Of a stretch of DNA of 58,359 bases, positions 42,990 to 46,953 are shown piece after piece; the first letter of the stretch is position 1; each line of letters starts with the position of its first letter. The position numbers and the translations under genes were made by a program. The notes below the pieces were generated by a model. The model searched no databases. It was not told the DNA's origin and worked only from the letters and a program-made list of their open reading frames with translations. This DNA is from a virus. The DNA is taken from IMG/VR virus record IMGVR_UViG_3300017991_000124, positions 1 to 58,359 of that record; one strand, written 5' to 3'.

Positions 42990-44327
42990 TTACACTGCGA
43001 CATCTGGATCAGGTGGAATTGCCGCTTGCAGTTCCGACCAGGTGGCACGCTCCTCGCCGCGCTCCCGCACCGGATCCTGCCCCGTGTGCTCGGCCCAGCG
43101 AGCCACGCAGACGTCGCAGTATGCGGGGTCGATCTCCATCGCGTAGCAGCGGCGCCCCAAGTTCTCGGCGGCGATCAGCGCCGTGCCAGACCCGGCAAAC
43201 GGATCACAGATGATCTCCCCTTCGCGGCTACTGTTTCCCATCGCGCGTTCGTACAACCCGACGGGCTTCATCGTGGGGTGCAGTTTCGACTGATGCGGGC
43301 GGTCGATCGCCCACAGCGACGTCTCACCAGTGCCGCCATAGAACCGATGCCCGGCGCCCTCGACCCATCCGTAGATGATCGGTTCGTGCTTGTAGTTGTA
43401 ATCCGCCCGACCCAGAACGTGGTTGTTCTTAGCCCAGATCAACATGTGCCGCAGCGGAAACCCAACTTGGATCAGCGTTTGCAGCAGCAGCAGCAGCAGT
43501 TCTCCACCTTGAGGTCCGGTCACGTAGTACCCGGCCCCCGGCTTGGCGAACTGACGCACCGCTCCAAATGCCTTGCGCCAGAAGGATTCCATCTCATCGG
43601 GAGATTGGTGGTCGCTCGCTATCGGTACCTGAATGCGGTTGGCCGGGGCAACCACATTCAGGTACCGATTCTTGTCCGCATAGCTCACGCCGTACGGTGG
43701 GTCGGTGACGAGCAGTTCGTATCGCTCCTGTTGGAACAGCGCGGTAAGCGATTGTGCATCGGCGCAGTCCCCGCACAGCAGCCAGTGGTCGCCGAGGGTC
43801 CACAGATCGCCCGGCTTGGTGATCGGTGTCGCTGGCGGGGCGCCGGGTGCCGTGTCTTGCCCCGGCTGCGCGGTCCGCAAAATCGCCTTGCGGTCGGAGT
43901 CGCTGTACCCGGTCAGGTCCATCTCCATCAGGCCGGTGTCTAGTTCCAGCAGCTCCTCGCGCAGCAACCCCCGGTCCACCTCCCCGAGCTCGGCGATGCG
44001 GTTGTCGGCCAGGCGGTCGGCGCGCTCGTCCTCCTCGGATGAGTAGTTTTGGTGATCGACGGGCACCTGCTGCAGCCCCAATTGTGCGGCCGCTTCACGA
44101 CGCGCGTGGCCGCGCACGATGTAGCCTGACTGGTTGCTGACGGTGATGGGGTAGCGCCAGCCGTGGTGGCGGATCAGTTTGGCGAGGGCGGCGATCTGGT
44201 CGGCGGGGTGCTGCTTGGCGTTGCGGGGGTAGGGGCGCAGGTTGTCCAGGGGGACGATCGCCGTGTGGGCGCAGTGCACGGGCACGCCGTCGGCGGTTGG
44301 GATCTGCTGTTGGTCGGGGTCGCTCAT
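42990..44327 (-). CDS. ParB-domain / DNA methyltransferase fusion
   Basis: 445 residues. Residues ~20-130: IVPLDNLRPYPRNAKQHPAD then LIRHHGWRYPITVSNQSGYI and VRGHARREAAAQLGLQQVPV, a ParB N-terminal (CTP-binding type) domain. From ~170: LWTLGDHWLLCGD, LLVTDPPYGVSYADK (DPPY catalytic motif), KLHPTMKPVGLYERAM and ICDPFAGSGTALIAAENLGR (SAM-binding FxGxG), the beta-class order used by N6-adenine or N4-cytosine enzymes. Such fusions are common in phages and often lack a restriction partner, serving self-protection. Stop is TAA at 42990. Confidence 0.85.
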   Translation of the reverse strand: MSDPDQQQIPTADGVPVHCAHTAIVPLDNLRPYPRNAKQHPADQIAALAKLIRHHGWRYPITVSNQSGYIVRGHARREAAAQLGLQQVPVDHQNYSSEEDERADRLADNRIAELGEVDRGLLREELLELDTGLMEMDLTGYSDSDRKAILRTAQPGQDTAPGAPPATPITKPGDLWTLGDHWLLCGDCADAQSLTALFQQERYELLVTDPPYGVSYADKNRYLNVVAPANRIQVPIASDHQSPDEMESFWRKAFGAVRQFAKPGAGYYVTGPQGGELLLLLLQTLIQVGFPLRHMLIWAKNNHVLGRADYNYKHEPIIYGWVEGAGHRFYGGTGETSLWAIDRPHQSKLHPTMKPVGLYERAMGNSSREGEIICDPFAGSGTALIAAENLGRRCYAMEIDPAYCDVCVARWAEHTGQDPVRERGEERATWSELQAAIPPDPDVAV

Positions 44328-44626
44328 CGTAGTTGCTCCTCGGCCCCCGGCACCATGCCCGGGAGCAGGAATGTGGTGATGGTCTTGCGGTGTCGGTCGT
44401 AGCAGGCGACCGCGGGCACGTCGTCTGGTGGCAGTAGTACGAGGAATCGTCCGACGCGGTTGGAGGTGTCGTCGAGGTGGCGCGCGGAGTTGGACTGGAT
44501 CTGCCGGACGATGGTGTCGAGGTCGGCTGGTGTGAGGTCGAGGTCGAACCGCTCGAGTGCGCGCCGGATGGCGTGGGTCTGCTGGGCGTGGGCCTTGGGG
44601 CGGCGCTTGCGGGAGGTGCGGCTCAT
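44324..44626 (-). CDS. Small conserved phage protein
   Basis: 100 residues from ATG 44626, inside the end of the cytosine methyltransferase (ATGA). ALERFDLDLTPADLDTIVRQ then VGRFLVLLPPDDVPAVACYD and RHRKTITTFLLPG resemble a small 'helix then beta sheet' family with the end 'V.YD...K.I.TFLP'. Known members are uncharacterised phage proteins. It lies between two methyltransferases and may accompany them. Confidence 0.65.
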   Translation of the reverse strand: MSRTSRKRRPKAHAQQTHAIRRALERFDLDLTPADLDTIVRQIQSNSARHLDDTSNRVGRFLVLLPPDDVPAVACYDRHRKTITTFLLPGMVPGAEEQLR

Positions 44627-46953
44627 CGGCCCCCCCTTTTCATTTCGCTGTCGATCCGCTCGCCGATCCAGCGCATCACCGGCACGGCCATGGAGTTGCC
44701 GATGGCCATGTAGCGCGGACCGTCTGGACACTCGGATGGTGGCTTGCCGCGCCAAGGGATCTGCGTCCATCCGCTACTAACGGTCAGATCGCAGACGAAT
44801 GAATTCGCGTGTTGTATTTCGGCTGGAATGAATGAACCGATGACAGTCCACACATAGGAGCACAAGATTGCCAGGTTCAAGCCTGAGTTCTGGAAACTTG
44901 ACCCAACTTCCGACGTGGTGGACGTGGAATGTTGGATCAGTTGTTGTATGCACTGCGCCGCACCGCCGGCATGTTCTTCTATCTCTGGCCCATACAGATT
45001 GACAACATGATTTCCATTCTTTGCTTGTGAAAAACAGTTGTTGCTCTGATGTGATTCCGCCTTTCCATTGGGAACTGCCCTCCCCAGTTTGTGCAGCATA
45101 AGCGCAAGCGTGTGAACAAAACCGCCTGGTAGCATAAGCCGGTGACACGCGCTTTCGATGTCCACACCATTCACAGACAACGACCACTTTCCGATCCTGA
45201 GTCGCAGACGAGGCTCTGGCTCGCAATTGATCAGCGCACTGACGCCCACACGTTCTCGCTGGTCTGGATGGGGGACGACTGAATGACCGACCACAGACCT
45301 CACACTTCCGGGTGATTTTCTTGCGTCTACACGCGAGACATTGTTTGGCAACTTGGGACATCTCTGCCCCACAGCCGCATCGTTGTTTTGACGGTCTGAG
45401 CATACAACTATCGTAACAGTCCTCGCTACCTCTGGGAATCCTTGCAGCCGCTCGCACTCCACCGGCATCAGGCGTCGCACGCGCATCAAAGCACCCTGCA
45501 TCTCTGGTGTTTCCGAGCCTTCGCTTATGCACGGAAAACCTTGCCCGGGTTTACCACCGCCGCACTTGAGGGAACCCATGAGAACATTGGTTTCAACCTC
45601 GCCGCGCTGATTTTCATGCACGGCAACGGGATGCACCACGGCACCGGGCCCATCGCTGCACAGCGCATCGCTCTTCCCATCGAACTTCAAGCCCACCTGA
45701 TTCGACGACTCGCTGTTGCGTAGCTGGCGGGGGTTGGCGAAGAAGTCCTCGGGGCGGTCTGGGGTGGCCACCAACGTTCGCGTCGATCCCCCAGATGCTG
45801 CCCTGATATTGGCAAGATTGTCAGGATCGACCTCGGGAACGTTTCCCTCCTCTCGACCGCGCATGTTGAAGGCTATCGGTTCTTCGCTTGGTTGCAGCAC
45901 GGCCGGCGGATCCCCTTTGCTTCCGCAGCGGAGAGTTGGCGACATTGTGTCTGGATCCTGTCGGGCGTTGAACGCGCAAACCTGTAGCGATTCTGCGGTG
46001 TCCACGTCGGTGCCCGGTGGTCGATCTCCACCCGTGCGATTACCACCAGCGCGCAGAGTCGGCACCAAGTTCTGGCACTCGTCCCCGCTGGGGCCGTCGG
46101 TGCCCTTTGCCCACTTGGAGGTCACGACGTCAGACAACCTTGACACGGCAACCCCGGGATCGCCTTCTTCTTCTCGATCAGCATCGCACAACATACCGGG
46201 CACACCTTCGGTAACGAGTTGTCCTGCGGCGGCTTCGTCGGCCCCGACTCGGTGGCCACCGCCCGGAGAGCATCCCGCAAGCGTGCCGGTAGTTCTCTCC
46301 CGCGCTTCTTCGCCCGACGGATGATCCCCGCGCATGCCCTCGCACTCAAGAAGTACTTCTCCGGGATCGAACCCCGCACGAGCACTTGCGACAACGAACA
46401 CGCGCTTGCGTCGCTGGGCGAGTCCGAAATGTTGGGCGTCGAGGACGCGCCAGGCAATTGTTCGCGCTGGTCCAAGCACGACACCAGCGTGCGTCCATCT
46501 TTCCCCTGACGGGACGAGTGGATCATCCTCGCCGGCCAGCGCGCCCAGGAGGCATCCAAGTGGGTTGTCACCGTGGCTGAGCACACCGGGCACGTTTTCC
46601 CAGACGATGACGATGGGCGGTTGGCCTCGCCGAAGTCGAACAGCGTCGATTGCCTCGGCAAGCCGCACAAAGGACAGGGTAAGGTTTCCTCGTTCATCCT
46701 GCAGTCCCTTTCTCAGCCCCGCCACGCTGAACGACTGGCAGGGCGTCCCCCCGACCAGCACGTCGATGTCGGCGCACTCCTCGGGGTCCAGTTCGGTCAT
46801 GTCCCCGAGGTTGGGGACGTCGGGGTAGTGATGGGCGAGCACGGCGCTGGGGAAGGGTTCGATCTCGCTGACCCACGCGCACTCCCAGCCCAGCGGAAGC
46901 CACGCCACACTCGCGGCCTCGATGCCCGAGCATACCGACCCGAATCTGATCAT
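44623..46953 (-). CDS. C5-cytosine methyltransferase with an in-frame insertion
   Basis: 776 residues. Motif I RFGSVCSGIEAASVAWLPLG, motif IV GGTPCQSFSVAGLRKGL, motif VI IVWENVPGV, motif VIII ERWTHAGVV/LAQRRKRVFVVAS, then a long variable region, motif IX MPVECERLQGFPE and motif X DGPRYMAIGNSMAVPVMRW. Between IX and X, where GFP(D/E)GWTQIPWRG would be expected, sit 219 extra codons (45430-44774) of lower GC that stay open in this frame and carry an HNH gene in another frame. A further overlapping gene lies under residues ~86-277. Phage enzymes of this kind protect the genome from host restriction. Whether the form with the insertion is active is unknown. Confidence 0.85.
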   Translation of the reverse strand: MIRFGSVCSGIEAASVAWLPLGWECAWVSEIEPFPSAVLAHHYPDVPNLGDMTELDPEECADIDVLVGGTPCQSFSVAGLRKGLQDERGNLTLSFVRLAEAIDAVRLRRGQPPIVIVWENVPGVLSHGDNPLGCLLGALAGEDDPLVPSGERWTHAGVVLGPARTIAWRVLDAQHFGLAQRRKRVFVVASARAGFDPGEVLLECEGMRGDHPSGEEARERTTGTLAGCSPGGGHRVGADEAAAGQLVTEGVPGMLCDADREEEGDPGVAVSRLSDVVTSKWAKGTDGPSGDECQNLVPTLRAGGNRTGGDRPPGTDVDTAESLQVCAFNARQDPDTMSPTLRCGSKGDPPAVLQPSEEPIAFNMRGREEGNVPEVDPDNLANIRAASGGSTRTLVATPDRPEDFFANPRQLRNSESSNQVGLKFDGKSDALCSDGPGAVVHPVAVHENQRGEVETNVLMGSLKCGGGKPGQGFPCISEGSETPEMQGALMRVRRLMPVECERLQGFPEVARTVTIVVCSDRQNNDAAVGQRCPKLPNNVSRVDARKSPGSVRSVVGHSVVPHPDQRERVGVSALINCEPEPRLRLRIGKWSLSVNGVDIESACHRLMLPGGFVHTLALMLHKLGRAVPNGKAESHQSNNCFSQAKNGNHVVNLYGPEIEEHAGGAAQCIQQLIQHSTSTTSEVGSSFQNSGLNLAILCSYVWTVIGSFIPAEIQHANSFVCDLTVSSGWTQIPWRGKPPSECPDGPRYMAIGNSMAVPVMRWIGERIDSEMKRGGR
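44777..45403 (-). CDS. HNH homing-type endonuclease nested in the methyltransferase
   Basis: 208 residues from ATG 45403 (a longer frame exists but its extra part is methyltransferase sequence). Two Cys-rich ribbons (CGCGAEMSQVAKQCLACRR; CEVCGRSFSRP...CGRQC) and a third, CEWCGHRKRV...CSHAC, precede the nuclease: SSQWKGGITSEQQLFFTSKE, RRTCRRCGAVHTTTDP, FHVHHVGSWVKFPEL and GNLVLLCVDCHRFIH. H, N and H of the HNH fold are present. The gene fills the low-GC insertion exactly and ends in TAGTAG right at the junction. Homing endonucleases with this layout usually lie in introns or stand alone; here it lies inside an open insertion. Confidence 0.75.
   Translation of the reverse strand: MLRPSKQRCGCGAEMSQVAKQCLACRRKKITRKCEVCGRSFSRPPSRPARTCGRQCADQLRARASSATQDRKVVVVCEWCGHRKRVSPAYATRRFCSHACAYAAQTGEGSSQWKGGITSEQQLFFTSKEWKSCCQSVWARDRRTCRRCGAVHTTTDPTFHVHHVGSWVKFPELRLEPGNLVLLCVDCHRFIHSSRNTTREFIRLRSDR
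46122..46697 (-). CDS. Overlapping gene inside the methyltransferase (LSxxACxGIxRRAxKRG protein)
   Basis: 191 residues read in a third frame. It has a Cys ribbon at the start (CPLCGLPRQST...CPVCSA). The conserved block is NISDSPSDASACSLSQVLVR then GSIPEKYFLSARACAGIIRR and AKKRGRELPARLRDALRAVA. That block belongs to an uncharacterised phage family I recognise ('CSLS.VLE...P.KYFLS..AC.GILRRA.KRGK.LP..L..AL'), and here it lies wholly under the equally conserved methyltransferase motif-VIII region. The end has another ribbon (VCPVCC...PCQGC). Dual coding is likely because both frames match known families. Start is ATG 46697, with weak ribosome site. Confidence 0.6.
   Translation of the reverse strand: MNEETLPCPLCGLPRQSTLFDFGEANRPSSSSGKTCPVCSATVTTHLDASWARWPARMIHSSRQGKDGRTLVSCLDQREQLPGASSTPNISDSPSDASACSLSQVLVRGSIPEKYFLSARACAGIIRRAKKRGRELPARLRDALRAVATESGPTKPPQDNSLPKVCPVCCAMLIEKKKAIPGLPCQGCLTS

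Follow-up and report, generated by a model that had tools for sequence, protein, structure and literature searches.

How can a phage gene for a DNA methyltransferase (MTase) carry a complete HNH endonuclease gene in its interior and still be open from one end to the other? The question is raised by the window, the whole stretch of DNA that we analysed, which is a 58,359-bp IMG/VR virus record that carries a contractile-tail sheath gene. On its minus strand, where the genes of this region lie, an insert separates motif IX of the MTase (ERLQGFP) from the sequence GWTQIPWRG, and so lies between motifs IX and X. A preliminary description, made from the window alone, gave the coordinates of this insert, its length of 657 bp or 219 codons and its lower GC content (0.52 against about 0.65 for the host gene); it also noted an HNH open reading frame (ORF) in another frame that ends in TAGTAG at the junction, and an MTase frame that passes through the insert without a stop. 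We find all of these to be correct (Table 1). The MTase-frame codons of the insert are 45429-44773, the MTase frame is the HNH frame +1, with no stops across the insert, and the third frame has eight.

Table 1. Coordinates of the insert, its host gene and the predicted elements within them (window numbering).
Feature	Position	Strand	Basis or remark
C5-cytosine MTase gene (predicted), read through the insert, 776 aa	44623..46953	-	PF00145 6.3e-34, PHROG_116 4e-81; motifs intact on both sides of the insert
MTase N-terminal part to motif IX (..ERLQGFPE)	45431..46953	-	aligns with L002 and with further invaded MTase genes; GFP motif
MTase C-terminal part (GWTQIPWRG.., motif X GNSM..)	44626..44772	-	conservation much like that of uninterrupted MTases
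Insert, 657 bp = 219 codons	44774..45430	-	comparison with empty-site relatives and 16 other invaded genes; edges uncertain by 1-3 nt
5′ segment of insert outside the HNH ORF, coding in the MTase frame only	45404..45430	-	in most members the HNH ATG comes 29 nt after GFP
TACGAT, TANNNT -10-like hexamer, candidate leaderless promoter	45410..45415	-	exactly 6 nt before the HNH ATG
HNH homing endonuclease ORF (predicted), 208 aa	44777..45403	-	PF01844 6.7e-9; PHROG_1271 1.5e-18; frame other than that of the MTase
Two zinc-finger-like CxxC modules, HNH residues 34-100	45104..45304	-	zf-FCS_1 and DZR matches below cut-off; invariant Cys pairs in alignment A4
HNH catalytic domain, residues 145-193	44825..44971	-	Pfam match and invariant columns of alignment A4

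By its motifs and its match to PF00145 the host gene is assigned as a C5-cytosine MTase. Motifs I (GSVCSGIE), IV (GGTPCQSF), VIII (QRRKRVF), IX (ERLQGFP) and X (GNSM) are all found, and the ORF can open upstream as far as 47307. The C-terminal part that lies beyond the insert has a mean pairwise identity of 0.60 in invaded MTases against 0.66 in uninterrupted ones. The target-recognition region (46350-45500) holds many loose repeats of the type xTLRAGG/SPTLRCGSKGD; AF2 confidence there is very low (pLDDT about 25) and the length of the region differs greatly among relatives. The gene downstream of the MTase (42990-44327, minus strand) is a ParB-like/N4-N6 DNA methylase, so that the window phage has at least two orphan methylases side by side.

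A second overlapping ORF, separate from the insert, lies within the MTase gene at 46122-46697 on the minus strand, in the MTase frame +1 and just after motif VIII. Its peptide (..SLSDILETGDVPQRYFLSPKACAGILRRAEKRGKELPPALxxAL..) is strikingly conserved in 27 distinct loci, the window and 26 others, with a wobble identity of 0.72 and amino-acid conservation in the second frame far above the null; tblastn matches to it were found in 132 phage records, mostly beneath an annotated MTase among the matches seen. Overprinting, or a product made by frameshifting, could account for this ORF, and a limited literature search found no description of it.

Relatives with an empty site read ERLQGFPDGWT at the junction, in agreement with the uninterrupted PDGW that had been put forward as the usual family sequence. 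Comparison with such relatives had also been recommended as the means of placing the junction exactly; it located the site, but the edges are still uncertain by 1-3 nt. The 6-bp sequence GTAGCG is repeated at the two ends of the window insert (45429-45424 and 44777-44772), and we treat this as chance because a deletion between the copies would shift the frame and because the repeat is not evident in other members of the family described below.

The ORF that fills nearly all of the insert is predicted to be an HNH homing endonuclease, with the His-His/Asn/His residues and the zinc cysteines in place. The conserved positions in alignment A4 are H162, H163, N179, C184, C187 and H188, and the protein also has a WKGG motif and an intact HNH/Cys4 core. 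AF2 models it with a mean pLDDT of 84, and its top PDB match is the HNH protein of phage GVE2 (5H0M, E 0.011). As to how the nuclease might be expressed, no Shine-Dalgarno sequence is evident before its ATG in the window and a simple sigma-70 scan found no promoter. Fifteen members start the HNH ORF 29 nt after GFP (L075 being counted by its second ATG), and in 10 of these a TANNNT hexamer stands exactly 6 nt before the ATG, which suggests a leaderless promoter. This promoter is a candidate only, since the same bases encode a conserved Val-x-Ile in the MTase frame and these codons could also explain the hexamer.

When the window HNH protein was used as the sole query, no close relative was found in viral contigs, genome contigs, plasmids or phages. 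The first lead was obtained with a degenerate pattern for MTase C-terminal parts that are not preceded by GFPD, which led to the decayed copy L041; a pattern for the HNH C-terminus led to complete members, and an alignment-based scan to further ones. The family comprises 17 distinct members in the collections searched: the window itself (W), L060, L062, L063, L065-L070, L072, L073, L075-L077, L079 and L090. Members were found via the HNH protein, and the state of the MTase frame played no role in their discovery. In 17 of 17 the insert follows the GFP of motif IX of a C5-MTase (GFP/D-G[YW]T, where the slash marks the site), and a second MTase subfamily has been invaded as well, with the junctions AQGFP/../YVI (L060, L076 and L077). 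Many metagenomes contributed contigs, which belong to environmental phages unrelated to one another, and a single sequenced bacterial genome, that of Vannielia litorea, also carries a member. When 394 genomes from the host family of L060 were searched, L060 was the only one returned. HNH identities among members are mostly 50-60%. In L041 (7058-7623) the MTase N-terminal part is joined by a large deletion to the last 30 or so HNH codons; the HNH remnant (..CHKFVHSKRNVANEFLHRPSS, then the stop) ends at the same site, and the MTase frame is broken.

A second HNH clade of the same superfamily (L080-L098) is found inside phage N4/N6-MTase genes or immediately upstream of them. At one of its loci, L097, copies of the MTase N-terminus (..LPSESVDCC[IV]TSPPYF) stand both before and after the HNH gene, as though the element brought with it a substitute for the 5′ end of the MTase gene.

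The open MTase frame was said in the preliminary description to be unlikely by chance at this base composition. This is true of base-shuffled DNA, for which 10 stops are expected in the MTase frame of the window insert and the probability of zero stops is about 0, but it overstates the case for the window once the HNH protein is held fixed: zero stops are then obtained in 7% of synonymous-codon shuffles (P about 0.07) and in 1.7% of codon-order shuffles. The open frame of the window by itself is thus weak evidence. Across the 17 members, with the protein sequence of each HNH and the codons it uses kept fixed, no stops are observed in the MTase frame (+1) against 25.6 expected, while the other frame (+2) has 159 against 180.9 expected. 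The control set, 13 HNH ORFs of the related clade (clade 2) that are not at the GFP site, has 110 stops in +1 where 110.0 are expected. L069, an AT-rich member (35% GC), has 24 stops in +2 and none in +1. Multiplied together, the per-member probabilities give about 10^-15, or about 10^-24 with host codon usage, values that are not strict probabilities because the members are homologous. Fourfold-site identity among members is 0.41 against 0.30 expected, so third positions are largely randomised. In every one of the 17 the MTase frame runs unbroken out of the N-terminal part, across the insert and on to motif X, which is intact. Relatives with stops in this frame, which had been named in advance as evidence against read-through, number 0 of 17, the sole broken copy being the deletion remnant L041. 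These data show that stops have been purged from the host frame across the family.

The lengths of the inserts tell the same story. They range from 579 to 666 bp and all are multiples of three. Among the resolved C5 members, the 3′ tail that follows the HNH stop and leads to the MTase C-terminal part measures 4, 7, 13, 19 or 25 nt, in each case 1 mod 3, and as these tails lie outside the HNH ORF nothing in the HNH protein demands such a length. In L076 the HNH stop falls inside the MTase C-terminal part.

Several comparisons indicate that the element is probably mobile and has spread horizontally. L073 and L075 have inserts with a DNA identity of 95.9%, against 62-75% in their MTase flanks. 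The close match extends slightly into the C-terminal part; at the other end, the 30 nt or so before the HNH start are 64% identical against about 96-100% in the HNH body, so that recombination seems to have had its edge at the HNH start and not at the insert edge. Identity of the HNH proteins is nearly uncorrelated with that of the host genes (r 0.08 without the close pair), and the MTase core of L072 is 88% identical to the uninterrupted MTase L036. The distribution of the family is disjunct.

Our reading of the locus, which we hold with considerable confidence, is that a homing endonuclease gene occupies motif IX (QGFPD) of the MTase and that its host has been kept by dual coding, the insert being read through in the MTase frame and the nuclease started separately. 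The target of the nuclease would be the DNA that encodes the conserved QGFPD; empty alleles would be cut, and repair would then copy the element into the cut allele. With the +1 frame kept stop-free and in register, ribosomes would pass straight through the MTase, and selection on the frame suggests that the product is an MTase with a loop of about 200 residues between motifs IX and X. For the nuclease, translation would begin at the ATG of the HNH ORF, possibly on a leaderless transcript. This reading predicts, from the sequences, that both frames are translated, that the read-through MTase is active and that the nuclease cleaves DNA. The proposal that this is a homing element read through rather than spliced is therefore strongly supported by the family-wide avoidance of stops, the triplet lengths and the control clade, whilst its accompanying claims of novelty and of a possible intron or intein fare less well, as discussed below.

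A variant of this reading concerns what the MTase frame of the insert encodes. The peptide is conserved beyond the constraint imposed by the HNH protein (mean BLOSUM 0.82 against 0.24, z 30.7, or 22.8 with codon identity matched), whereas the control clade shows no such excess (z 0.5). The +2 frame is also over-conserved (z 14.7, and 12.1 with matched codon identity), and this excess, together with the fourfold identity above expectation, implies that part of the amino-acid signal is shared ancestry. The MTase-frame product begins with E[IV]xxxVxI..C and ends with NSFSVxVE..G[YF]T. In the AF2 model of the 776-residue read-through protein the MTase core is confident, a strand is predicted at each end of the insert (508-520 and 718-728) and the two strands might form a stalk by pairing; confidence is low in the middle of the insert, mostly with pLDDT of about 25-60. 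The conserved ends, the two predicted strands and the amino-acid conservation beyond that due to the nuclease would suit the same dual-coding element with a product that is more than a tolerated loop, namely a selected domain that helps the MTase to fold or modulates it. Set against this are the low-confidence middle and the insert-free relatives, whose MTases look complete, and we think this variant rather unlikely.

HNH ORFs are a usual cargo of group I introns in phages, and the present insert does sit at a conserved site, so that removal at the RNA level by an unrecognised intron, or a translational bypass that skips the insert, has to be considered. If the element were removed or skipped, however, its frame would not have to stay open and in register, and here the HNH ORF leaves only about 30 nt of the insert uncovered. 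Rfam gave no intron match in the window at E values up to 5, and at the gathering threshold ten other member loci yielded no intron, the only hit being an unrelated tRNA. We judge removal or bypass at the RNA level to be very improbable. The suggestion of an unrecognised intron or intein-like element thus found neither an Rfam match, nor room outside the HNH ORF, nor a Pfam match in its favour.

Orphan phage MTases are often dispensable, and an ordinary free-standing homing endonuclease might simply have disrupted a non-essential one, with the open frame a matter of luck. The modest improbability of zero stops in the window, given a fixed HNH protein, would allow this, but the family data already disfavour it: the stops missing from all 17 members are present at expectation in the control clade, length variation outside the HNH ORF keeps the frame, and the C-terminal part with motif X is intact in every full-length member. 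Luck is accordingly a most unlikely explanation. Equally implausible is protein splicing of an intein-like kind, or assembly of the two gene parts as separate subunits, for although the insertion is in frame between conserved residues, as inteins are, and split C5-MTases exist, the MTase-frame translation of the insert has no Pfam match, and none to an intein splicing domain, the residue after the insert is mostly Gly and not Cys, Ser or Thr, the insert ends vary between members, and the MTase frame offers no start codon at the junction from which the C-terminal part could be translated separately.

The dual-coding element can be compared with several known arrangements. In the ribonucleotide reductase of Enterococcus phage Sw5 (L004) an HNH nuclease likewise lies inside or beside a conserved phage gene, but there the annotation divides the reductase into separate genes on either side of the HNH gene. 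Group I introns with an HNH ORF, of the I-HmuI type, also interrupt a phage gene with an HNH nuclease, whereas in our family no ribozyme was detected, almost nothing lies outside the ORF and the host frame is open. Inteins with a homing endonuclease share the in-frame insertion at a conserved site and spread by homing, but the nuclease here is in another frame and there is no splicing domain.

The closest likeness is to the ShiLan domain of the mycobacteriophage methylase gp65 (Arsenault, Gosselin and Gogarten 2025, PMC11855218; first described in PMC9957025), a stop-free, in-frame methylase insert that hides an out-of-frame HNH gene and has neither intron nor intein (PMC11855218). Pacc40 gp60 is a second case of a hidden HNH (PMC11855218). 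The claim that the window insert represents a new kind of nested mobile gene does not stand, since the same arrangement was published in 2025; the window belongs to a different family. Both ShiLan and the window element have a stop-free host frame, a complete HNH ORF that fills nearly the whole insert and no intron or intein signature. In both, the out-of-frame HNH protein has flanking zinc fingers, starts near the 5′ end of the insert and stops at its 3′ end, the host frame is HNH+1 (verified on L104), the distribution is patchy and the in-frame structure is of low confidence. The ShiLan host is an N6/N4 methylase (PF01555) in place of a C5-MTase (PF00145), with a different site, and its nuclease is of the HNH_3 type (PF13392), not PF01844; it is mainly the zinc-finger/WKGG part of the two HNH proteins that is recognisably similar (hhalign probability 92%). 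ShiLan was reported from mycobacteriophages, with similar HNH proteins noted in other phages and in prokaryotes (PMC11855218). Pacc40 gp60 resembles the window in having an out-of-frame nuclease-like ORF within a stop-free phage methylase insert, again with the host frame at HNH+1, but differs in nuclease, host gene and position.

The 2025 report dealt with about ten mycobacteriophage sequences, and selection on the open frame was not tested there (PMC11855218). The present family extends this kind of element to a second class of methylase and another site, shows it to be widely distributed in the environment and demonstrates, with a control clade, that stops are purged from the host frame. 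What was a curiosity thereby becomes a testable third strategy for homing endonucleases beside introns and inteins, and the family supplies long, independently replicated cases of overlapping genes on the same strand. We would give roughly even odds to a more general proposition: that homing elements can persist without a splicing device by means of two overlapping, simultaneously selected proteins, the nuclease and a strand-anchored, stop-free insert domain, and that this has arisen at least three times (the window family, ShiLan and Pacc40), always with the host frame at +1 and, in the window family, widely in environmental phages. Judged by its methylase class, its site and its type of HNH domain, the window element is placed as a separate family of the ShiLan kind.
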